Assembly: GCA_011525905.1 (NCBI GenBank)
Contig: WYBK01000053.1
Span: 1-32,459 of the forward strand
Reading direction: 5' to 3'
Source of the DNA: Acidobacteriota bacterium
GTDB taxonomy: Bacteria > Acidobacteriota > Thermoanaerobaculia > Multivoradales > JAGPDF01
DNA length: 32,459 nt
Within the stretch, counting starts at the first letter, position 1, and the number at the start of each line of letters is the position of its first letter. Below, piece after piece: positions 3,707 to 23,653 of the stretch. The notes under the pieces are model-generated. The model was not told the DNA's origin. It saw nothing but the letters and a program-made list of their open reading frames with translations, and did not search any database. The position numbers and the translations under genes were made by a program.

Positions 3707-4531
3707 TTGGACGACCCTTCCGATCTCGCCGCCACCGATCTCGCCCGCCTCACCCGGCTGGTCGCGCGGCTGCGCGCTCCCGACGGCTGCCCCTGGGACC
3801 GCGAGCAGACGCTCTCCAGCGTGCGCGCCTACCTGCTCGAGGAGGCGCACGAGGCGGCGGCGGCGATCGACCGCGGGGAGCCGGAGGCGCTCTGCGCCGA
3901 GCTCGGCGACCTGCTCTTCCAGGCTGCGTTCGTCGGCCGGCTGGCCGAGGAGGGAGGCGCCTTCGGCCTGGCCGACGCGATCGAGAGGGCGCGCGCGAAG
4001 ATGATCGCTCGCCACCCGCACGTCTTCGGCGGCGAGGAGCTGGCGACCGCCGAGCAGGTGCGCGCCGCCTGGGAGCGCCGCAAGCTGCGCGAGGAGGGGA
4101 ACGGCCGCGCCTCGCTGCTCGACGGCGCGGTCGCCGCGACCCTGCCCGCGCTGCTCGCCGCCTACCGGGTCACCCAGAAGGCGGCGGGTGTCGGCTTCGA
4201 CTGGCCCGACGCCGCGGCGGTGCTCGACAAGCTCGACGAGGAGGTCGCCGAGCTGCGCGCGGAGCTCGCCGGCGGACCGCCCGAGGGCGAGCGCCTCGAG
4301 CGGATCGGAGCCGAGCTCGGCGACCTCCTGTTCACCGTCGCCAACCTGGCGCGCAAGCTCGAGATCGACCCGGAGGCCGCGCTCGCCGGCACGCTGCTGA
4401 AGTTCCGCCGACGCTTCGCCCACGTCGAACGGGAGCTCGCCGCCCGCGGCCGCCCGCTCGGCGAGGCCACCCTCGCCGAGATGGACGCGCTCTGGGGCGA
4501 GGCGAAGGCGCGCGAAGCGCCGCCAGAGTAG
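3707..4531 (+). CDS. mazG: MazG nucleoside triphosphate pyrophosphohydrolase
   Basis: This 274-aa protein of normal MazG length carries two tandem all-alpha MazG domains. The first has the PDGCPWDREQT motif followed by LLEEAHEAAAAI and ELGDLLFQ (the EExxE...ExxD metal-binding pattern). The second has LDEEVAELRAEL and ELGDLLFTVANLARK. The family hydrolyses NTPs and dNTPs to monophosphates plus pyrophosphate, cleaning nucleotide pools or lowering ppGpp-linked stress. I take the TTG at 3707 as the start; no in-frame ATG or GTG fits better and the family's conserved region begins about 20 residues later. It is a single gene, convergent with the next one. Confidence 0.93.
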   Translation: MDDPSDLAATDLARLTRLVARLRAPDGCPWDREQTLSSVRAYLLEEAHEAAAAIDRGEPEALCAELGDLLFQAAFVGRLAEEGGAFGLADAIERARAKMIARHPHVFGGEELATAEQVRAAWERRKLREEGNGRASLLDGAVAATLPALLAAYRVTQKAAGVGFDWPDAAAVLDKLDEEVAELRAELAGGPPEGERLERIGAELGDLLFTVANLARKLEIDPEAALAGTLLKFRRRFAHVERELAARGRPLGEATLAEMDALWGEAKAREAPPE

Positions 4532-4563
4532 CCGGGTCGGACCCCGCGGGCCGGGTCGGCGAA

Positions 4564-5550
4564 TCAGGGCTCGGCCTCGGCGCGCGCCCGCGCGCCGCTC
4601 CAGGCGCGCTGCAGGATCGGGTTGAGGCGGCGCAGCCGATTGCCGTCGTACTCGGCGATCCAGATCGACTCGCCGTCCCAAGCGACGCCCGAGAGGTACT
4701 CGATCTCGAGGCGGTCTCCTCCCGACCAGCGCGGGGCGCCCGTGGCGAGATCGAGGACGGTCAGCGAGTCGTCGAAAACGTCGGCGAACCAGAGGCGCCG
4801 TCCGTCCCAGGCGAGCCCCTGGCAGCCGACGCCCGGCGAGTCGTGGCGTTCCAGTTCGGCGAGCCGCGCGTCGAAGCGATAGAGATGGGCGGGGCGCGCT
4901 TCGTCCGCGGTGTTGCGCCGCGTGGCGCCCCAGTAGCCTCGCCCGTCCCAGACGAGGCACCCGAGCTGGTCCGGCGCGGTGCGCACTCTGCCGATGCGAT
5001 ACGAGACCGGGTCGAGGGTGACGAAGACCTGACCCTCGCGGCCGAACCAGGCGCCGTCGGCGACGGCCACCAGCTCGCGGCCGTTCCAGGCGAGCGCGTC
5101 GAGACTCATCCGCTGGTGGTAGGTCGGCTCGAGCACCGGCTGCTTGCTCACTCGCCAGCGCTCCCTGGGCCCGCGCTCGACCAGCATCAGCCCCCAGGGA
5201 TCGACGCGATTGCCGAGGACGAAGCGCTCGCCCGTCCAGACCGCGTTGAGCGGGTTGCCCGGCAGCTCGACGGCGACGTCGAAGAGCGCGCCCGGATCGA
5301 CCGGGCCGACCTGCGCGACGGCCTCGACCGGCTCGGCGTCGATCCAGGGGTCGAGGATGCGCGCGACGCGCGGCCGGATCTCGAGCCACCAGTAGACCGC
5401 GACCACCGCGAGCCCGAGAAGAACGCCGACCAGGACGGCGCAGCCGAGCCGCGGACGGGCGCGGCGGCCGGCCGCCACCGGTCTGCCGCAGGCGCGGCAG
5501 GCGAGCGCGCCCGCCCCGATCTCGGCGCCACAGGCTCGACAACGCAGCAT
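4564..5550 (-). CDS. Zinc-ribbon, single-pass membrane beta-propeller-like protein
   Basis: This 328-aa protein has a zinc ribbon at its very N-terminus (two CxxC knuckles: CRAC and CRAC, residues 4-22). One membrane helix (about 34-55, LGCAVLVGVLLGLAVVAVYW) follows, then a long extracytoplasmic part with repeated W-D/N-G blades (AVWTGERF, LAWNGRELVA, LVWDGRGYW, LAWDGRRLWF, VAWDGESIWI). These look like a glutamine-cyclotransferase or NHL-type beta-propeller. The ATG at 5550 places the first CxxC at residue 4; an upstream in-frame ATG at 5601 would only add a non-conserved extension. A GGCTAGAGT element lies 20 nt upstream. The gene is convergent with mazG and divergent from the next gene. The ligand or partner is unknown. 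Confidence 0.8.
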   Translation of the reverse strand: MLRCRACGAEIGAGALACRACGRPVAAGRRARPRLGCAVLVGVLLGLAVVAVYWWLEIRPRVARILDPWIDAEPVEAVAQVGPVDPGALFDVAVELPGNPLNAVWTGERFVLGNRVDPWGLMLVERGPRERWRVSKQPVLEPTYHQRMSLDALAWNGRELVAVADGAWFGREGQVFVTLDPVSYRIGRVRTAPDQLGCLVWDGRGYWGATRRNTADEARPAHLYRFDARLAELERHDSPGVGCQGLAWDGRRLWFADVFDDSLTVLDLATGAPRWSGGDRLEIEYLSGVAWDGESIWIAEYDGNRLRRLNPILQRAWSGARARAEAEP

Positions 5551-5570
5551 CGTCGCTCGAACTCGGAGGA

Positions 5571-5579
5571 ACTCTAGCC
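5571..5579 (-). promoter_or_regulatory. GGCTAGAGT, variant of the recurrent TGCTAGNNT motif
   Basis: The minus strand reads GGCTAGAGT ending 20 nt before the start codon at 5550. The spacing is nearly identical to that of the TGCTAG elements before the genes starting at 25072 and 29136, so it may be a -10 region. Confidence 0.35.
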
Positions 5580-5654
5580 CATCCCACTTTTCGGCCGGCA
5601 ACCGGCCGCGCCGCCGGAACCCCGACCGCGGCCGCCGCGTATCTCCCCGCGACC

Positions 5655-5660
5655 GGAGGT
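5655..5660 (+). promoter_or_regulatory. Strong ribosome binding site (GGAGGT)
   Basis: GGAGGT lies 6 nt before the ATG at 5667 and decides that start for the secreted propeller protein. Confidence 0.75.
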
Positions 5661-5666
5661 GACCGC

Positions 5667-7289
5667 ATGCCGAGTCTCGAGGCCCCGCGCGCCGCGCCGA
5701 AGCTCTTGCTCACGCTGCTCCTCTTCACCGGCCTCGTCGCGGCCGGCGAGCCGCGGCCGGAGCCCGCGCGCCAGCTCGCGGGCCGGGTGCTCGACGCCGA
5801 GGGCGCGCCGGTCGCCGGCGCGCTCGTCGTCGCTGCGCCGGTCGTCGCCGCGCCGCGGGGAGCCCCGCTGCGCCACGCCACTGCGACGGACGCGGAGGGC
5901 CGCTTCCGGCTCGAGCTCGCCTCGAGCGGCCCACACGCGGTCGCGCTCGCCGACCCCGACCATGCGAGCGCCGAGGTGACCGCAGCGCCCGGCGGCGGCG
6001 AGGTCCGGCTGCGCGCCGAGCCGCGGCCGCCCGCCGAGCGCGGCGCGCGCTCGGCCGAGTGGCTGGCGCTGCTCCCCGCGGGAGAGCGCAAGCGCTGGTT
6101 CCTGCTCGATTGCACCGGCTGCCACCAGTTCAACGAGACGCGCGCGCTCGCCCAGGGCGAGCCGCGCAGCGCCGCGCAGTGGGAGGCGGACGCCGCCCGC
6201 ATGCACGCGCAGTTCGGTCCCGGCTCCGGCTTTCCGATCCTCTCCGGACACCTCGTCGGCGCCGGGCTCGGCGAGTGGCTGCACGCCGCGGCGACCCGAC
6301 CGCGGACGCCGCTCGCGCTGCCCGAGATCGCCTCGGGCTTCACGCTGACCGAGTACGACCTGCCCGGGCCCGACCTGCCGCACGATCTCGCGGTCGACGC
6401 GCGCGGGCGGGTGCTGATCACCGGCATGTTCAGCGCGCGGATCCTGGTGCTCGATCCGGCGAGCGGCGCCGTCGAGAGCGTGCCGATCCCGGTCGCGCAG
6501 GCCAACCCGCGCGCTCTCGAGATCGACGGCGACGGCCGCTGGTGGGTGCTGCTGGGCGCCGCCCGGCGCGTCGCGCGCTACGATCCGGCGAGCGCCTCGT
6601 GGGCGAGCGCGCCGATCGGCATGTACGCCCACAGCCTGGCGCTCGACCGCGCCGGCGGCGTCTGGGCGAACGACCACTTCGCCCGCGCGGGCCTGCGGTT
6701 GGCGCGGGTCGCTCCGGGCGAGCCGCTCGCGGTCGCCGAACGGACCGGGCCGCCCTTCGCCACCGCCACCAAGGGGCCCTCGCCGATCCCCTACGAGCTG
6801 CGCGTGGCGCCCGACGGCCGCATCTGGACCTCGCTGCTCCACGGCAACGCGCTGATCGCGCACGACCCGGCAAGCGGCACCTTCGAACAGGTGACGCTCC
6901 CCGATCCCGATTCCGGCCCGCGGCGCTTCGACGTCGACGCGCGCGGCGACCTCTGGATCCCCGGCTACGCCTCCTCGACGCTCTACCGCTACTCGCCGGC
7001 GACGCGCGCCTTCGACCGTCACCCGCTGCCGATCGGCGACGCGCTCCCCTACGTCGCGCGGGTCGACCGGCGCGACGGCTCCGTCTGGGTCGGCACCGGC
7101 GCCGCCGACGCCCTCTTCCGTTTCGACCCGGCGACCGGCCGCTTCGCCGCCTATCCGGTGCCGACGCGCGGCGCCACGATGCGCCACCTGGCGATCGACC
7201 CGGCCCGCGGCGACGTCTGGATCGCCTACGGCGCCTCGCCGGCGATCCACCCGACGCGCATCGCGCGCCTGCGGCTCGCCGAGCCGTAG
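5667..7289 (+). CDS. Secreted CXXCH plus Vgb-like beta-propeller protein
   Basis: This 540-aa exported protein has a signal peptide (residues 1-26, LLLTLLLFTGLVAAGE). A carboxypeptidase-regulatory-like beta-sandwich follows (about 35-118, LAGRVLDAEGAPVAGALV). A short helical segment carries a single haem-c type motif CTGCH (C149, C152, H153). The C-terminal 330 residues form a propeller similar to virginiamycin B lyase/streptogramin lyase, with repeated LAVDARGRV, ALDRAGGVWAN, RVAPDGRIWTS and VDARGDLWIPGY blades. Vgb-type propellers are usually sensors or carbohydrate-binding domains in environmental bacteria; true antibiotic lyase activity should not be assumed. The CXXCH implies covalent haem if a cytochrome c maturation system exists. 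The start is fixed by a strong Shine-Dalgarno. The gene is convergent with tesA. Confidence 0.87.
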   Translation: MPSLEAPRAAPKLLLTLLLFTGLVAAGEPRPEPARQLAGRVLDAEGAPVAGALVVAAPVVAAPRGAPLRHATATDAEGRFRLELASSGPHAVALADPDHASAEVTAAPGGGEVRLRAEPRPPAERGARSAEWLALLPAGERKRWFLLDCTGCHQFNETRALAQGEPRSAAQWEADAARMHAQFGPGSGFPILSGHLVGAGLGEWLHAAATRPRTPLALPEIASGFTLTEYDLPGPDLPHDLAVDARGRVLITGMFSARILVLDPASGAVESVPIPVAQANPRALEIDGDGRWWVLLGAARRVARYDPASASWASAPIGMYAHSLALDRAGGVWANDHFARAGLRLARVAPGEPLAVAERTGPPFATATKGPSPIPYELRVAPDGRIWTSLLHGNALIAHDPASGTFEQVTLPDPDSGPRRFDVDARGDLWIPGYASSTLYRYSPATRAFDRHPLPIGDALPYVARVDRRDGSVWVGTGAADALFRFDPATGRFAAYPVPTRGATMRHLAIDPARGDVWIAYGASPAIHPTRIARLRLAEP

Positions 7290-15705: not shown

Positions 15706-16764
15706 TCAGGCGTGGCTCGTGCGGCGGAACTCGCTCGGCGTGATCCCTTTCAGGCGCTTGAAGGCGGCGTTGAAGCTCGACTTCGAGTTGAAGCCGGAGG
15801 CGTAGAGCACGTCGAGCACGTTCTCGCCGGCCGCCGCGGGGTCGGCGAGCCGTCGCGCCGCCTCCTCGATCCGGTAGCCGTTGATCCAGTCGGAGAAGTT
15901 GCGGCCGTGCCCTCGATTGACCAGCGAAGAGAGGCGCCGCGCCGGCACGCCGAGCCGCTCGGCGAGCTCGGGCAGGGTCAGGTCGGGCTCGAGGTAGAGC
16001 CGGCGCGCCGTGACCGCGGCCTCGATCCGCTCGAGCTCGGCGCGGTCCGCCGGCTCGAGCGGCTGGGGCGCGGGCGGCGCCTCGGCGGCCGCCTGCTCGA
16101 CAGCCGAGACGCCGACGAGCGAACCGGGGCACTCGAGCGCCAGATAGACGAAGCCCGCGATGTAGGCGAGCAGCGCGACGAAGAAGAGCGTGCGCACCGC
16201 GACCGGATCGGTCCAGCGCACCCAGTGCGCGGTGATCACCGTGCCGGTGTCGAGCAGGTTGAGCGCGAGGAAGCCGAAGGCCGCGAAGTCGACCCAGATC
16301 GTCCGCTCCCCGGCCGGGCCCGACCGGGTCGAGCGCAGCGTCCGCCGGTAGCGCCACCAGAGCGCCAGCGTGGCCCCTGCGTAGGTCCAGAGGCTGGCTG
16401 CGGTCAGGCGAAGCCGCAGGCCGTCCGGGAGGTGGCCGCTCGCGAAGGCGAGCAGCGCGAAGGCGAAGGGCGCGAGGTGGAGCAGGTCGCGCCGACGCCA
16501 GCCCCGCTCCGGGAAGGCGAGGCTGCGCACGAAGGCCCAGACCGCCGGTCCGAAGAGCACACCGAACAGCGTGGTCGCGTTGACCGCGAGGGTGCCGGTC
16601 AGACGCTGCACCCCGCCGACGGCGCTCGAGCTGCCGAACATCAGCAGCAGCGCGATCAGGATCCGGTTCGCCGGCTGCCGCCAGCGCCCCTTGCGCGCCA
16701 GGAAGAGAGGCAGCACCAGGCACTGCGAGGCGATCAGGAGCTGAAAGAGGGCGAAATGGAACAT
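15706..16764 (-). CDS. Membrane-bound AraC-family regulator (seven-helix N-terminus)
   Basis: This protein of about 352 aa has roughly seven membrane helices in residues 1-235 (for example ALFQLLIASQCLVLPLFLA, FGVLFGPAVWAFVRSLAF, FFVALLAYIAGFVYLAL). A short linker and an AraC/XylS DNA-binding domain with two helix-turn-helix motifs follow (about 255-350: LTLPELAERLGVPARRLSS and NVLDVLYASGFNSKSSFNAA, then LKGITPSEFR). One-component membrane AraC regulators of this form are common in Bacteroidota and Acidobacteriota and are presumed to bind DNA while anchored in the membrane. I chose the ATG at 16764 because the first helix begins right there; the longer in-frame extension is Arg-rich and unlike protein. 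No strong ribosome site is seen, so the start is moderately sure. Confidence 0.87.
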   Translation of the reverse strand: MFHFALFQLLIASQCLVLPLFLARKGRWRQPANRILIALLLMFGSSSAVGGVQRLTGTLAVNATTLFGVLFGPAVWAFVRSLAFPERGWRRRDLLHLAPFAFALLAFASGHLPDGLRLRLTAASLWTYAGATLALWWRYRRTLRSTRSGPAGERTIWVDFAAFGFLALNLLDTGTVITAHWVRWTDPVAVRTLFFVALLAYIAGFVYLALECPGSLVGVSAVEQAAAEAPPAPQPLEPADRAELERIEAAVTARRLYLEPDLTLPELAERLGVPARRLSSLVNRGHGRNFSDWINGYRIEEAARRLADPAAAGENVLDVLYASGFNSKSSFNAAFKRLKGITPSEFRRTSHA

Positions 16765-16917
16765 CGGCGCGTCGAGGCGTCCCGCGCTCCTCAATACGCC
16801 GGTCGCCCGCGCCGGGTAGCGCCGGCGGGACGGACCGACCCGGCGCCGACACGGACCGCTCCGCACCGCGTGCCAGCGGGCGGGAGGGGCCTAGGAGGGG
16901 CCAGATCGGACCTCGTC

Positions 16918-17841
16918 CTACTCCGGCAGCGTTTCGCGGCGTTCGAGCAGGTAGGAGACGGGCACGAACTCGAAGCCCTCGGCGAGGGCGCGCGGGATCT
17001 CCTCGGCGAGCACGGCGAGGGTGGCGCGCCGGGGGTGGGCGATGGCGATCGCCGCGCCCCGCTCGCGCGCCAGCTCGAGCAGCCGCGCCATCTCGCCGCG
17101 GATCGCCTCCGGCTCGTCGACCGCGTCGAGGAAGACGTCGCGCCGCGCGGCCGGCACGCCGAGGTCGAGCGCGAGCTCGTAGGCGACGCTCTCGGGCGTC
17201 GTGCGCGAGTCGAGGAAGAAGAGGCCGCGCTCGCCGAGCAGGGGCAGGACGGTGCGCATCGCCCGCTCGTCGGCCGTCAGCCGCGAGCCCATGTGGTTGT
17301 TGACGCCGGCGGCGCCCGGCACCCGCTCGAGCGCGCGCTCGACCGCCGCCGCGAGCCGGCGGCCGGACATCCCCTCGACGAGCGCCCCGGGACCCGGGTC
17401 CTCCTCGCCGGTCGCTTCCATCGGCAGGTGACAGAGCACCTCGGCGCCGCGCGCGGTCAACGCCTGCGCGACCTCGGCGCTCCAGGGCTCGAAGGGCAGC
17501 ACGGCGAAGCTGAGCGGCACGCCGAGCTCGAAGAGGCGGTCGAGCTGGCCGACGTCCCGCCCGAGGTCGTCGAAGATCAGGGCGACCCGCCCGGGGGGTG
17601 GCGCCGGCGACGGCTCGGCCGCGGGCGGAACCGGCGTCGCCGTCGGCGTCGGGACCGGTTGCCGCCTCGGGCGCTCCGGCCGGGGCGCCTTCTCGTCGGC
17701 GGGGAGCCGCGGGCGCTCGACGCGCGGCGCGCCGCCGGGGCCGCGGCCGAGCCAGAGGCCGACGGCGAAGAGCGCCAGGGCGCCGAGGGCGACCAGCGTC
17801 CAGCGCAGCGCGGGGCGGGACTTGCGGCGACGGCGCGGCAT
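16918..17841 (-). CDS. yibQ: Divergent polysaccharide deacetylase (YibQ/DUF610-like)
   Basis: This 307-aa protein has a positively charged N-terminus, one membrane anchor (about 12-32) and a Pro-rich linker (about 38-84). The divergent polysaccharide deacetylase domain follows (VALIFDDLGRD with DD at 91-92, AVLPFEPWSAEVAQ, EVLCHLPMEA, GVNNHMGSRLTAD, FFLDSRTT, AIAIAHPRRAT). The family is related to NodB-type carbohydrate esterases, but its activity is not firmly known. In proteobacteria it neighbours envC and a carboxy-terminal protease, exactly as here. The ATG at 17841 lies 21 nt after the upstream S41 gene, so the three genes are almost certainly one operon. It probably acts in the periplasm on peptidoglycan or envelope polysaccharide. 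Confidence 0.9.
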   Translation of the reverse strand: MPRRRRKSRPALRWTLVALGALALFAVGLWLGRGPGGAPRVERPRLPADEKAPRPERPRRQPVPTPTATPVPPAAEPSPAPPPGRVALIFDDLGRDVGQLDRLFELGVPLSFAVLPFEPWSAEVAQALTARGAEVLCHLPMEATGEEDPGPGALVEGMSGRRLAAAVERALERVPGAAGVNNHMGSRLTADERAMRTVLPLLGERGLFFLDSRTTPESVAYELALDLGVPAARRDVFLDAVDEPEAIRGEMARLLELARERGAAIAIAHPRRATLAVLAEEIPRALAEGFEFVPVSYLLERRETLPE

Positions 17842-17862: not shown

Positions 17863-19047
17863 TCAGGCGGCGAGCGGCTCGGCGCTCTCCGCCTCGCCGC
17901 GCAGCAGGCGGATGCCGCGATCGAGGATCAGGTCGCGCAGCTTGCGCTCGCGCTCGCCGAAACGGATGCTGAGCTCGTCGACCAGCAGGTCGGGGGCGAG
18001 CGCCTCGTCGATCGGCGCGCCCTCCGGCCCCCGGTAGAAGGCCGTGGTCAGCAGCAGGCGACCGCCGCCCTCGAGGTCGACCGGCGAGCGCACGCCGGCC
18101 CAGCCGAAGGTCGGCACGCCGACCAGCTTGGCGCCGGCGCGCTCGCGCAGGATCGTCGCGAGCACCTCGGCGGCGCCGAGCGTGCTGCCGTCGACCAGGA
18201 CCGCGATCTCCCCCCGCCAGAGCGGCTCTTCGGTCCCTTCGAAGGTCGCCAGCGCGCGGTCGCGCTCGCGCAGCTCGCCGAGCGGCCCGCGCGCGAAGAG
18301 GGCGCCGACCGCGTAGGCCGCGTCGACGGAGCCGCCGGCCACGCCCCGCAGGTCGACCAGCAGCTTCGCCGCGCCGCTCTCCGCGAGGCGCGCCACCAGG
18401 GGCCGCGCCGATGCCGCGCTCGACTCGGCGAGGCGCGGCAGGCGCAGCATCGGGAACTCCTCGGCCTGCTCGAGCCGCGGCCCGGCGGGCTCGAATCGGG
18501 CGAGCTCGAGCGTCTTGCGCTCGGCCTCGCCGCGGCGCAGGACTTCGCACTCGAGCCGCGCCCCGGGCTCGCCCGCGAAGAGCGTGTCGATTTCCCAGCC
18601 GGCCATCTCCCGGGTCGACCGGCCGCCGACCTCGGCGAGCACGTCCCCCGGCTCGAAGCCGGCGCGCTCCCCCGGCGAGCCCTCCTCGACCGAGACGACG
18701 TAGGCGATGCCGCGGCTGCGCAGGACGATCAGGCCGGAGAGGGCGGAGCCGACCTCGGCGGCGCGCGCGTGCGGGGCCACCGCAGCGGCGGGCAGGTAGA
18801 GCGAAAAGGGGTCCAGCGCTTCGGTCGAGCCGTCCATCGCGCCGACGACGAGGTGCGCCAGGTCGGTCTCGTCGACGTAGCTCGAGCGCACCAGACCGAG
18901 CACCTCCGAGAAGATCGCCAAGTACTTGTAGAGCGAATCCTCGTCGCCGGAGGCGCCGGTCCGGGACGCGCTCCAGAGCACTCCGGAGACCAGCGGCACC
19001 AGCACGGCCAGCGAGAGGAGGAGGAAGAGGGCGCGGCCTCGGTTCAT
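17863..19047 (-). CDS. S41 (CtpA-like) PDZ protein, probably catalytically inactive
   Basis: This 394-aa protein is built like a C-terminal processing protease: signal anchor (6-26), helical N-terminal part, PDZ domain (about 95-180; VVSVEEGSPGERAGFEPGDV) and S41 core (about 195-365; LLVDLRGVAGG, IAVLVDGSTLGAAEVLA, LVGVPTFGWAGV). Active CtpA enzymes have Ser three residues before the conserved Glu of SASASE and Lys 25 residues later in GxPTFGKG. Here these positions are Gly291 and Trp316, with Glu294 and the 25-residue spacing preserved. It is therefore probably a pseudoenzyme that binds rather than cleaves its targets. It overlaps the EnvC-like gene by ATGA, indicating translational coupling. 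Confidence 0.9.
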   Translation of the reverse strand: MNRGRALFLLLSLAVLVPLVSGVLWSASRTGASGDEDSLYKYLAIFSEVLGLVRSSYVDETDLAHLVVGAMDGSTEALDPFSLYLPAAAVAPHARAAEVGSALSGLIVLRSRGIAYVVSVEEGSPGERAGFEPGDVLAEVGGRSTREMAGWEIDTLFAGEPGARLECEVLRRGEAERKTLELARFEPAGPRLEQAEEFPMLRLPRLAESSAASARPLVARLAESGAAKLLVDLRGVAGGSVDAAYAVGALFARGPLGELRERDRALATFEGTEEPLWRGEIAVLVDGSTLGAAEVLATILRERAGAKLVGVPTFGWAGVRSPVDLEGGGRLLLTTAFYRGPEGAPIDEALAPDLLVDELSIRFGERERKLRDLILDRGIRLLRGEAESAEPLAA

Positions 19048-20234
19048 TTCGGAGCTCGTCGGGAGGGGTCGCTCGTGCGCATCCAGTTGCGGGGGTTCTC
19101 GGGCCGGTTCTCGACGCGGATCTCGAAGTAGAGCTCGCTGCCCGCGCGGCCGAGCGGCTGCTGCAACGATACCATGTCACCGCGGCCGACCGAGACCTCC
19201 GCGAGCCCGGCGTAGAGCGTGAACGCGCGTCCCGCGTGCTGCACGACGACCGTCGGACCGTAGCCCTCGAACGGCGCCGCGAAGACCACGCGCCCCGGGT
19301 AGACCGCGACGACGGGGGCACCGGAAGCCGTCGCGAGGTCGACGCCGTTGTGCGGCACGCGCGTGCCGTAGCGCGGGTCGAGCCGCGGGCCGAAGTCGAT
19401 CGCCACCCGGCCGGCCGCCGGCCAATCGAGCAGACCGCGGAAGTCGCCGATCGGCAGGCCGGCGAGCCCTTCGCCGTCGCGGCCGTAGAGCGAGTCGAGC
19501 AGCGCCGAGAGCTTGCGCGCGCGGTCGCCGAGCTCGAGCGCCCGGCCGGCGAGCCGCTCGCCTTCACGGCGGGTCCCCTCGAGCAGGCGGGCGCGGCTCG
19601 CCTCGAGGCGCACCAGCTCGTCGCGCCGACGGCTCTCCTGTGCGAGCCAGCCGGCCACCTCCGTCTGGCGCTCGGCCAGCTCGGCGCGCTCCACGGCGAG
19701 CCGGGCCCGCAGCTCCTCGAAGCGGGCGACCAGGTCGGCGTCGCGCCGGACCAGGTAACGGATCCAGCGCAGGGCGGGCAGCAGCCCTTCGCCCGGCTCG
19801 AGCGCCAGCAGGAGGCGGATCGACCCGTGGCGCCCGAAGCGGTAGAGCCCCGCGAGCCGCGTCTCCAGACGCCGCCGCTCGGCCGCGAGCTGCGTTTCGA
19901 GCTCGGCGATCGCGCGCTCGCTCGCCGCCACCTGCTGGTCGGCGAGCGCCTTGGCCGCCGCCGCCTCGGCCAGCCGGCGCTCCTGCAGCTCGAGCTCGAG
20001 GCCGATCCGCTCGAGCTCGCCTTCGAGCCCGCTCGCCCGGCGGCGCGCCTGTTCGACCGCCGCCTGCAGCCGAGCGATCTCGCCGCGGATCGCCTCGAGC
20101 TCGGCTTCGCGCTCGGCCAGATCGGCTCGCGGCGGCGCCGGCGCCCCGTCGCGCGCGAGCGCGCGGCCGCCGGCCGCCAGGCCGAGCACCAGGCCGGCGA
20201 CGAGAGCGATCCCGGCTGCGGACGGGCGCGCCAT
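19044..20234 (-). CDS. envC: EnvC-like coiled-coil LytM (degenerate M23) protein
   Basis: This 396-aa exported protein has a signal peptide (1-28), long coiled coils (about 38-130 and 165-250) and a C-terminal LytM/M23 domain (about 275-385). HNGVD (H295, D299) keeps part of the zinc site. The essential HxH near the end is replaced by ELY (367-369, in ELYFEIR), and the usual YxHL is YAGL. E. coli EnvC has the same kind of LYFEIR and is a non-enzymatic activator of cell-division amidases. I infer a similar role in septal peptidoglycan splitting; no amidase gene lies in this window. It is the first gene of the envC / S41 / yibQ operon. A TAAGCT sits 9 nt before the ATG and no good Shine-Dalgarno is seen. 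Confidence 0.9.
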   Translation of the reverse strand: MARPSAAGIALVAGLVLGLAAGGRALARDGAPAPPRADLAEREAELEAIRGEIARLQAAVEQARRRASGLEGELERIGLELELQERRLAEAAAAKALADQQVAASERAIAELETQLAAERRRLETRLAGLYRFGRHGSIRLLLALEPGEGLLPALRWIRYLVRRDADLVARFEELRARLAVERAELAERQTEVAGWLAQESRRRDELVRLEASRARLLEGTRREGERLAGRALELGDRARKLSALLDSLYGRDGEGLAGLPIGDFRGLLDWPAAGRVAIDFGPRLDPRYGTRVPHNGVDLATASGAPVVAVYPGRVVFAAPFEGYGPTVVVQHAGRAFTLYAGLAEVSVGRGDMVSLQQPLGRAGSELYFEIRVENRPENPRNWMRTSDPSRRAPK

Positions 20235-20297: not shown

Positions 20298-22457
20298 CTA
20301 CTTCAGCGACAGGGCGCGGCCGTCGAGCTCGACCGGCGCGGCGATGCCGTAGAGGTCGAGCAGCGTCGGCACCAGGTCGGCCATGTAGGGCTTGTCGGCG
20401 AGCTCGAGCGGCCGGTTCGCGAACAGGATGCCGTCGACCAGCGGCGGGTAGACCGAGCAGTGGTCGCCGCTCCAGACGTCGAGGTTGGGCTCGAGGAACT
20501 GCTTGGCGACGATGCCCAGCGTGTCCTGCCAGCCGACGCGGTAGCCGGCGTTGTTCGCCGGGAAGAGGTCGGGGATCAACGCCGGATCGTAGACGCCGTA
20601 GGCCTCGTCGCGGGTGAAGACGTAGGCGACCGGGTGCTCGCCGGTCTCCGGGTCGACGACCTCGGGCAGGCGCCGCTTGATCTCGGCCACGAGCTCGTCG
20701 TACTCGGCGCCCGGCTCGACGATCCCCTGTCCTTCGCGACCCTTCAGGTTGACGTAGATGTTGCCGAGGCCCATGGCGTAGGCGCGCGTCTTCGACCAGT
20801 CGACGTCCTGGAAGAACTGCCCCCGGGCGAAGAGGTCCTCGAGGTTGGTGCGCTGCTCGGACTCTCCCTCGAGCACCAGGTACCCCTCCTGGGCCAGCCA
20901 GGTGTTGTAGTTGGTGGTCCGGCGCCAGGGGGCGAAGCCGTGGTCCGAGACGACGAAGAGCAGCGCCTCCTCGGGCATCGCCGACATCACGAGGCCGACC
21001 AGACGGTCCATCTCCTGGTACGACTCGAAGATCTCGTTGCCGTACCGGGCCGCTCCCTCGGCGGTGTGCAGCGGGTGGAGCGGGTCGATGTGGCGCCACA
21101 TCACGTGCTGCACCCGGTCGGTGAACTCGAAGTAGTGGAAGTAGACGTCCCACTCGTCGGCGAGCAGCCCTTCGAGGATCTTCTGGTCGGCGCCGACGGT
21201 GAAGTCGACGTCCTCGTGGAAGACCGCGTCGTCGATCGTTCCCGCCTTGATCGACCAGGTGTCGATCATCCACCCGATGGTCTTGAACAGACCGAAGCGC
21301 TCGACCAGCTCGCCGGCAAAGTCGCTCGGGTAGGTGACGTCGAGCGCCGCCGGCAGGCTCGACGGGTCGAACTGGATCGGCGACAGGTAGATCCGCACCT
21401 CGGGCTGGACCGAGAGCACGCGGAAGCGGCCGATGCCGTGGACCTTGACCAGCGGATTGAACGGGAAGACGAAGCGCACCCAGGGGCTCCACTCCCCGGC
21501 GGCCAACGTCAGCCGGGCGCCCGAGACTTCGATGTCGACCTGGTCGCGGTCCTCCGAGACGACGATGCGCATCGGGATGCGGATGTCGTCCGACTGCTCG
21601 GGGAAGAGCTTGTTCGGCGGGCCCTGGATCTCGGTGTCGATCGTCCCCTTGTTGTCGACCAGCTCGACGATGTCGATCGAGACCTCGTTGTCGCCGCGCG
21701 GCCGGAAGAAGAGCTCCGAGGTGTAGTAGTAAGGCTTGCCGATGCGCCCCGAAAGGTCGGGCGTGCCGAGGCCGGAGAGCATCTCGCCGTGCTCGAAGGG
21801 CTCGGGCGGAAAGGTCACCGGCATGCGCATCACCCGCACCCGCTTGCCGGCCTGGCCGAGCAGCTTCCAGAAGGTGTCGCCCTGCCGGCGGTTGACCACC
21901 GTCGGCACCTCGACGGGCAGCCAGTTCGCGGCGACCCAGCCGACCGCGCCGCCGGCCGCGGCGGCGACGACCAGCGCCGCGATCCCGGCCTTGGCCGTGC
22001 CGGCACGGAAGAGCTTGAACAGCAGGAAGAGGACGACGAAGACCGCCCCCCCGGCGCCCAGGCCGAAGACCCAGCCGTTGCGCTCACCGTAGAGGAAGGG
22101 GCGCTGGCCCTCGTCGAACGCGGCGAAGCTCGGCCGGTAGGTCGCCGTGTCGCGTTTCAGGAAGTCGAAGATCGCGTGGCGGCCCGGGTTCAGCCCGGTC
22201 GACAAGGTCGACCAGGAGACCGGCGTCTGCGACGGGAGCGTCGAACGCAGCGGCGCGAAGGTCCCCTGCTCGCGCAGCTTCGCGAGGTTGGGCAGCCTGC
22301 CCTCGTTCATCCACTGCTCGGTCATCCGGGCGTCGGCGCCATCGAAGCCCAGGATCACCACGCGGGGCGAGTCGGCCGCGGCGACGGGCCGGGCGACGGC
22401 GAGGGCGAAGAGCGCGGCGACCAGAGCGCGCCCGGTGCTGCGTCGTTCGATCGTCAC
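20298..22457 (-). CDS. Membrane-anchored alkaline phosphatase superfamily / type I phosphodiesterase
   Basis: This 719-aa protein begins with a signal peptide (about 1-28, ending VAAADS). The phosphodiesterase/nucleotide-pyrophosphatase core is recognisable from the metal-ligand Asp in VVILGFDGAD (D39), the nucleophile region PSQTPVSWSTL (probable T78), HYFEFTDRVQHVMW, VVSDHGFAPW and a late GDHC His. Two membrane helices (about 129-150 and 157-178) are inserted between the first catalytic block and the rest, so both parts can face the periplasm. The substrate is unknown; the family includes phospholipid, nucleotide and phosphoglycan hydrolases. I chose the GTG at 22457 because GAGGAG lies 9 nt upstream and it opens directly into the signal peptide. 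It is divergent from the sigma-like gene. Confidence 0.88.
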   Translation of the reverse strand: MTIERRSTGRALVAALFALAVARPVAAADSPRVVILGFDGADARMTEQWMNEGRLPNLAKLREQGTFAPLRSTLPSQTPVSWSTLSTGLNPGRHAIFDFLKRDTATYRPSFAAFDEGQRPFLYGERNGWVFGLGAGGAVFVVLFLLFKLFRAGTAKAGIAALVVAAAAGGAVGWVAANWLPVEVPTVVNRRQGDTFWKLLGQAGKRVRVMRMPVTFPPEPFEHGEMLSGLGTPDLSGRIGKPYYYTSELFFRPRGDNEVSIDIVELVDNKGTIDTEIQGPPNKLFPEQSDDIRIPMRIVVSEDRDQVDIEVSGARLTLAAGEWSPWVRFVFPFNPLVKVHGIGRFRVLSVQPEVRIYLSPIQFDPSSLPAALDVTYPSDFAGELVERFGLFKTIGWMIDTWSIKAGTIDDAVFHEDVDFTVGADQKILEGLLADEWDVYFHYFEFTDRVQHVMWRHIDPLHPLHTAEGAARYGNEIFESYQEMDRLVGLVMSAMPEEALLFVVSDHGFAPWRRTTNYNTWLAQEGYLVLEGESEQRTNLEDLFARGQFFQDVDWSKTRAYAMGLGNIYVNLKGREGQGIVEPGAEYDELVAEIKRRLPEVVDPETGEHPVAYVFTRDEAYGVYDPALIPDLFPANNAGYRVGWQDTLGIVAKQFLEPNLDVWSGDHCSVYPPLVDGILFANRPLELADKPYMADLVPTLLDLYGIAAPVELDGRALSLK

Positions 22458-22513
22458 GTCGTCGGGCTCCTCGGAGTGAGGGATCGGCCGGAGGCGGCCG
22501 GCGCGCGGCCGCG

Positions 22514-22522
22514 TGCTAGCCT
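22514..22522 (+). promoter_or_regulatory. TGCTAGCCT, recurrent extended -10-like motif
   Basis: It lies in the gap between the phosphodiesterase and sigma-like genes, about 100 nt before the sigma-like start, and fits the TGCTAGNNT pattern seen before several other genes in this window. Confidence 0.35.
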
Positions 22523-22621
22523 GCCTCCGGTGCTCGGCACGGCGCGGTGGATCGTAGCAAACCGGCTGCCAGCCGCTGGCGGCGCCCTCGCCCTTCCGCC
22601 GGCGGCCAGGTGAGTGGCGCC

Positions 22622-23653
22622 GTGGGAGACGCGACCTCGTTCGATCGGATCCTCTCGCCCTTCCTCGCGGCGCCGAGCGAGGAGGAGGCCGACTGCGAGC
22701 TCTCTCACCTACTCGGCGAGCTGTCGGCGCCGCTCGTCCAGCGGCTGGTGCGCGCCCAGCTCGCCGGCCTGCCCGCCGCCGACCTAGAGGACGTCGCGGC
22801 CGAGACCCAGCTCCGGCTCGCCGAGCGGCTGCGGGCACTGCGCCGTACCGGCGGCGGCGAGCCGATCGCGAGCTTCGAGGCGTACGTCGTGGCGACCGCG
22901 CGCAATGCCTGTCGCGCCCACCTGCGCGCCCGCCGGCCCGCCTGGACGCGGCTGTCCAACCAGGTCCGCTATCTGCTCGGCCACGACCCGGCGCTCGCCA
23001 CTTGGCGGGGCGCCGACGGCAGGCCGTTGGCCGGCCTCGCGGCCTGGCGCGACCGCGCGGTCGCGGCGCCGGCCGCCGAGGCGGCGACGCTCGCCCTGCC
23101 GGCCGCGGCCGCCGAGCTCGAGCTCGCGGCCCTGCTGCGGCAGCTGCTGCTCGCCCGCGGTGGCCCCTGGCCCCTGTCCGAGCTGGTCGCCCGTCTCGCC
23201 GAGCTGCGCGGGATCGAGGAGCGGCGGGAGGTGCCGCTCGCCGCCGAGCCGCACGAAGGCGAGCCGGCGCTCGATCCTCCCGACCCGGGCCCCGGGCCCG
23301 AGCGGAGCCTCGGCGATCGCCGATTCGTCGCCGCGGTCTGGGAGGAAGTCGCCCTGCTGCCGCTCGGCCAGCGCCGGGCGCTCCTGCTCAACCTGCGCGA
23401 CGGTCGGGGCGCCGACCTGCTCTCCCTCCTGCCGGCGGCCGGGCTCGCGCCCCTTCCAGAAATCGCCCGGGCGCTCGAGCTCGGCGGCGGCGAGCTCGCG
23501 GCCCTCTGGCCGCGGCTGCCGCTCGAGGACCGCGAGATCGGCGAGCGCTTCGGCCTGACCCAGCGTCAGGTCATCAACCTGCGCAAGAGCGCCCGGGAGC
23601 GGCTCGCGCGCCGGATGCTGCGGCGCGAAGCCCCTTCCGGGCGGGAGCGGTAA
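22622..23653 (+). CDS. Oversized sigma-70-like factor with split region 4
   Basis: This protein of about 343 aa has an ECF-like region 2 (about 35-105: DLEDVAAETQLRLAERLRAL, SFEAYVVATARNACRAHLRA). A long Ala/Pro-rich linker (about 106-230) follows, then a region-4-like part. LPLGQRRALLLNLRDGRG (246-263) corresponds to the first region-4 helices. About 38 extra residues intervene before the recognition helix-turn-helix LEDREIGERFGLTQRQVINL (301-320) and RKSARERLARRM. Typical ECF factors are near 190 aa, so this is a distinct large form. The GTG at 22622 is preceded by AGGTGAG at a good distance; a GTG at 22610 is the alternative. The gene is followed after 41 nt by a probable anti-sigma gene. 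Regulator rather than enzyme is inferred from these motifs. Confidence 0.78.
   Translation: MGDATSFDRILSPFLAAPSEEEADCELSHLLGELSAPLVQRLVRAQLAGLPAADLEDVAAETQLRLAERLRALRRTGGGEPIASFEAYVVATARNACRAHLRARRPAWTRLSNQVRYLLGHDPALATWRGADGRPLAGLAAWRDRAVAAPAAEAATLALPAAAAELELAALLRQLLLARGGPWPLSELVARLAELRGIEERREVPLAAEPHEGEPALDPPDPGPGPERSLGDRRFVAAVWEEVALLPLGQRRALLLNLRDGRGADLLSLLPAAGLAPLPEIARALELGGGELAALWPRLPLEDREIGERFGLTQRQVINLRKSARERLARRMLRREAPSGRER

Follow-up and report, generated by a model that had tools for sequence, protein, structure and literature searches.

The window, by which we mean the whole 32,459-nucleotide stretch of DNA analysed here, carries on its minus strand a gene for a 394-residue S41/PDZ protein with a replaced catalytic dyad (17863..19047, exact ORF coordinates), hereafter referred to as pseudo-CtpA. 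Its N-terminus consists of a hydrophobic helix followed by a helical region that matches the N-terminal domain of CtpB, while the PDZ domain spans residues 112–179 (18511..18714, minus strand; Pfam PDZ_6/PDZ_2; pLDDT of about 96–98) and the S41 core residues 201–354 (17986..18447, minus strand; Pfam PF03572, E 2.9e-20). The PF03572 score of 73 bits (cut-off 24) places the protein in the S41/CtpA family by fold and descent, and the NCBI subfamily model TIGR00225 ('prc') matched it at 92.2 bits, under the curated cut-off of 218.6. An AlphaFold model computed from an 85-row alignment reached a mean pLDDT of 92.9 and a pTM of 0.87 and contained helices at both the N- and C-terminus. When this model was searched with Foldseek, the top matches were all CTPs (TM of about 0.7), the best among solved structures being H. 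pylori CtpA, P. aeruginosa CtpA, B. subtilis CtpB, and the D1 protease. The protein is a full-length CtpA-type S41 protein with N-terminal helices, a PDZ domain, and an S41 core, and the initial annotation, which had described its fold and PDZ domain as intact, is borne out by both the Pfam matches and the model.

Directly upstream lies a gene for an EnvC-like coiled-coil/LytM activator with a degenerate zinc site (YFEIR; 19044..20234, minus strand), which shares a 4-bp ATGA overlap (19044–19047) with pseudo-ctpA, and 21 bp downstream begins a gene for a YibQ/SddA-like divergent polysaccharide deacetylase (16918..17841, minus strand; PF04748, E 9.6e-73). The proposed envC/yibQ setting is thereby confirmed, and the overlap and the short gap suggest that the three genes would form one translation-coupled operon. 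The best NCBIfam model for the upstream protein was EnvC, at a score under that model's cut-off. The protein combines a coiled coil with a LytM domain whose zinc ligands are lost: a Tyr (YFEIR) replaces the His of the HxH motif in 130 of 135 EnvC rows, as in E. coli, and the window protein retains the HxxxD pair. The Asp/Asp/His/His metal ligands of SddA (D91, D92, H138, and H183) are intact in the window protein and invariant in the same loci (108–110 of 111 rows, the remainder being gaps). Since the SddA ligands are kept while the EnvC and CtpA sites are lost, selection in this operon maintains a catalytic deacetylase next to two dead peptidases. The source genome also encodes FtsX and three Amidase_3 proteins. 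No FtsEX was found beside envC when the flanks were searched with a single query, which is weak evidence. Two further minus-strand genes lie outside this group: upstream of envC, 20298–22838 encodes a PF01663 protein (type I phosphodiesterase/nucleotide pyrophosphatase family), and immediately after yibQ, 15706–16866 encodes an AraC-type regulator whose N-terminal part includes a hydrophobic region.

The order envC – pseudo-ctpA – yibQ (sddA) characterizes the class. EnvC was found directly upstream in 27/33 loci of the order (family f4 left out) and 42/42 loci of the class, and YibQ directly downstream in 30/35 and 36/43 loci, respectively. The linkage is lost in family f4 of the order (0/28); outside the class, EnvC adjoins in 22/54 loci, and about 60% of the other-class loci have neither envC nor yibQ as a neighbor. 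EnvC is therefore not an obligatory neighbor. Some of the unlinked loci lie near other wall genes, namely those for a class A PBP (L107), UppS (L144), and Ddl (L155). Among the f4 loci outside the envC/yibQ operon (e.g. L055, 5731–7152; L174; L177), the L055 copy is located between HATPase_c and MazG-type genes. At two further order-level loci, L053 (2167–5925 on the minus strand beside 4093–7137 on the plus strand) and L173, a canonical Ser-Lys CtpA gene is divergent from and adjoins pseudo-ctpA; the genome behind L173 (G017) carries a second pseudo-CtpA copy (G017:C146:43023-44165).

The catalytic positions of pseudo-CtpA

The nearest solved relatives of pseudo-CtpA, the CtpA proteins of P. 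aeruginosa (PDB 7rpq/8sxe) and H. pylori (9jr1), share its architecture and are both active, whereas its own dyad is replaced. Alignment to 7rpq gave an unambiguous register, in which Gly291 (codon GGC, 18175..18177, minus strand) occupies the nucleophile position of Ser302, and Trp316 (codon TGG, 18100..18102, minus strand) that of the catalytic Lys327. The two helper residues of the P. aeruginosa enzyme differ as well: Arg320 stands at K+4 in place of Gln331, and Phe81 (18805..18807, minus strand) replaces the DPHS His, His84, a match obtained by counting chain positions in the same alignment. Glu294 is retained, with Gly291 at E-3 and a spacing of 25 residues from Gly291 to Trp316. The replacement of both catalytic residues, as first annotated, thus holds. 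In P. aeruginosa CtpA, the S302A and K327A mutations abolish activity, and H84A and Q331A reduce it (PMC11021448).

The same state was observed throughout the order. Across 54 distinct order-level rows, Gly291 and Glu294 were each present in 54/54, while position 316 was occupied by Tyr (20), His (19), Trp (9), Leu (5), or Phe (1), so that a Ser nucleophile and a Lys base 25 residues apart did not occur (Ser or Lys at these positions in 0/54). Of the two residues whose sharing among orthologues the initial annotation wished to see checked, Gly is shared in the order and Trp is not; a family with Ser-Lys members in the same operon is described below. No Lys of the S41 core was conserved at ≥90% in the 54 rows, the sole such Lys being Lys41 in the N-terminal region outside the core, and no His was conserved within the core even inside the order. 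Because no core Lys is kept, and since the 7rpq register is clear, we rejected a misalignment and excluded any conserved shifted Ser-Lys dyad; the outcomes that would have contradicted the annotation, an orthologue with an intact dyad or a conserved core Lys, were both looked for in the order and not found. Glu294, Asp232, Arg234, and Ser/Thr289 were invariant in the order, the first three being invariant in active enzymes as well, and position 316 varies freely across the phylum, with at least 16 different residues.

For 14 close pairs, dN/dS was 0.10–0.53 by a simple, rough Nei-Gojobori count. Values well below 1 indicate purifying selection and hence that the protein is used. Residue loss conserved among orthologues is thus combined with purifying selection, as expected of a pseudoprotease. 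As far as sequence comparison can tell, pseudoenzyme status is well supported, and the loss of the dyad remains compatible with an unrelated activity of the protein.

Distribution in Acidobacteriota and the Ser-Lys family f10

Named relatives assign the window to Thermoanaerobaculia in the Acidobacteriota, which agrees with the phylum guessed in the initial annotation. The genomes sampled were mostly MAGs, and the family codes (f4, f10) are those of the tool. In the order-level sample, a match was present in 58/59 genomes, a few of which had only the canonical paralogue or fragments. Over the phylum and class samples and the fetched loci, most genomes encode one short S41 protein of about 390–450 aa, and most sampled genomes encode an additional, separate long (500–600 aa) canonical Ser-Lys CtpA. 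The source genome also carries such an active-type long gene (L001), and a mistaken paralogue was rejected on this ground. Pseudo-CtpA is about 26–28% identical to the long paralogue and 38–65% identical across the order. In a tree built without the dyad columns, the 128 short rows sampled over Acidobacteriota formed one clade (SH-aLRT 100) apart from the canonical and proteobacterial rows, and a careful 63-row tree agreed (short family as one clade, 100/100). Position 291 was Gly in 102 of the 128 rows, Ser in 12, and another residue in 14, and the Ser-Lys dyad was present in only nine, all of family f10. The pseudoenzyme part of the binding pseudoenzyme initially proposed is hence substantiated, with the Gly state extending phylum-wide, and decay in a single MAG was rejected because the Gly/non-Lys state spans order and phylum. 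Outside Acidobacteriota, the comparison comprised seven plasmid-collection records, six from Proteobacteria and one from Gemmatimonadota; they were not all envC-linked, and all seven, including the envC-linked proteobacterial CtpAs, were Ser-Lys. In family f11 (L111, L112, L208–L211, L227), tens of residues are inserted into the S41 core, after the nucleophile helix and before the Lys strand. We found no published description of a CtpA pseudoprotease in the literature. Whatever the history of f10, the sampled rows indicate that pseudo-CtpA persists without a catalytic site over most of the phylum.

Family f10 (L104, L105, L188, L189, L191–L193, L195, L196, L198–L200, L203–L205) belongs to the same class, Thermoanaerobaculia, and has the same envC operon. 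Besides the nine Ser-Lys rows, it includes Ala-Lys (L188, L196), Gly-Lys (L192), Ser-Arg (L200), and Gly-Arg (L204, L205) rows, a polymorphism of the dyad that may mean either that the protease is still being lost or that it has been regained. A horizontally acquired outside CtpA was not supported, as f10 nests in the short family and has the same operon. A single loss with f10 branching before all dead forms was also rejected: f10 falls within the Gly clade, and grouping all other short rows together was rejected by the AU test (p-AU 2.2e-6). The sister of f10, L103, is Gly/Lys and the basal f10 rows are Gly/Arg, and parsimony favors a dead ancestor, with five changes for Ser against 19 losses (at least seven when weak branches are collapsed). 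On the other hand, f10 retains Asn236 in 15/15, Gln320 in 15/15, and Thr340 in 13/15 rows, residues that are rare or partial outside it (12, 52, and 28 of 113 rows), which favors a retained dyad and many losses in parallel. Arguing against such retention, f10 lacks the canonical helper His, having the class-typical Phe81 in 15/15 rows, and also lacks several residues invariant in active enzymes. Between repeated loss and regain, we lean toward repeated loss. The joint proposal that a dead S41 protein is a core envelope/division scaffold of Acidobacteriota and that f10 re-evolved a Ser-Lys protease from a dead ancestor would be possible but is, in our view, doubtful. The occurrence of Ser-Lys f10 proteins in the same operon implies that the gene does not encode a pseudoenzyme in every lineage, and that the role would not preclude catalysis.

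Proposed role and alternative explanations

Active CtpA/Prc proteases degrade cell-wall hydrolases, and this is the job of the active CtpA in P. aeruginosa. The EnvC-type LytM pseudo-peptidase of E. coli has FtsX and AmiA/B as partners and works by binding. Because the relatives of pseudo-CtpA across Acidobacteriota almost all lack the cutting residues, binding or scaffolding, and not proteolysis, is probably what the protein is retained for, and a scaffold/regulator role is suggested by the position of its gene between envC and sddA and by EnvC itself being a dead peptidase that works by binding. Pseudo-CtpA would accordingly be a conserved non-proteolytic CtpA homologue that kept the architecture while its nucleophile, base, and helper residues were replaced. 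Its N-terminal helix would export or anchor it, the retained N- and C-terminal helices may drive oligomerisation, and the PDZ domain and S41 cleft would bind envelope proteins at their C-terminal tails or along extended segments without cutting them. Most likely, the protein would be a scaffold or a regulator in septal splitting by the EnvC (FtsEX)–amidase pathway, and the long Ser-Lys CtpA encoded separately in the same genome would probably be the protease for wall hydrolases. A role physically between EnvC and the wall-splitting enzymes is one that we infer from operon conservation and the identity of the neighbors. In E. coli, SddA modulates the septal amidases together with EnvC, a functional link (PMC12440217).

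It is rather unlikely that pseudo-CtpA would instead join the long Ser-Lys CtpA in a mixed assembly, as a subunit that regulates the activity of that protease, and would not act with EnvC. The presence of the long paralogue in the source genome and in most sampled genomes, the helices kept at both ends of the pseudo-CtpA model, the divergent long CtpA genes at L053 and L173, and the P. aeruginosa CtpA hexamer, where only one subunit per dimer is activated (PMC11021448), are all in line with such a subunit. However, the two proteins show low identity, and their genes are usually unlinked, whereas the class conserves linkage to envC/yibQ. A cryptic enzyme, one that relies on some other chemistry or on a dyad at shifted positions, seems highly improbable: although the cleft is well kept, including the four invariant residues, Asp232, Arg234, and Glu294 are equally invariant in active enzymes, position 316 is free to vary, and even the order shows no conserved Lys or His in the core. 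Loss of catalysis, possibly repeated, might also befit a non-functional relic on its way out, yet this is scarcely credible given ORFs intact in nearly every searched genome, the low dN/dS and the identity maintained over the order, the high-confidence fold, and a gene kept over a phylum. We consider it probable, though by no means certain, that pseudo-CtpA takes part in EnvC-linked splitting of the septal cell wall as a PDZ/oligomer scaffold without proteolytic activity, with a partner and mechanism that we infer.

Comparison with known systems

E. coli EnvC is a dead peptidase that is kept in the septal splitting pathway for its binding, as pseudo-CtpA probably is, and an EnvC-type protein is encoded in the pseudo-CtpA operon; the fold of EnvC is M23 and not S41. 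The gene order envC – ctpA – yibQ orthologue (PA5135) recurs in P. aeruginosa with an active CtpA (PMC12569750); orthology between the proteobacterial CtpAs and the Acidobacteriota short family, as judged from gene position, is putative. In Agrobacterium, the SddA homologue ATU2773 is reported to have lost the zinc ligands while its gene is kept in place in the envC operon (PMC12440217), so that there the dead member is the deacetylase, whereas in the Acidobacteriota operon it is CtpA, next to an intact deacetylase. Another non-proteolytic comparison comes from eukaryotes. RBP3/IRBP is a vertebrate retinoid-binding, non-proteolytic protein with S41-like modules. It was weakly matched (9frx) by the pseudo-CtpA family profile and, being eukaryotic and without an envelope role, is not a close relative.

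Cell division in Acidobacteriota is little studied. The automated label 'S41 family peptidase' would be misleading for pseudo-CtpA proteins. With them, the pathway that one pseudo-peptidase, EnvC, already runs would gain a second. The Ser-Lys, Ala-Lys, Gly-Lys, Ser-Arg, and Gly-Trp forms provide a natural separation-of-function series within the same gene and operon. A CtpA that is dead phylum-wide and fixed in the class between an amidase activator and a denuded-glycan deacetylase suggests an important function of CtpA other than proteolysis, which may exist in active CtpAs too.
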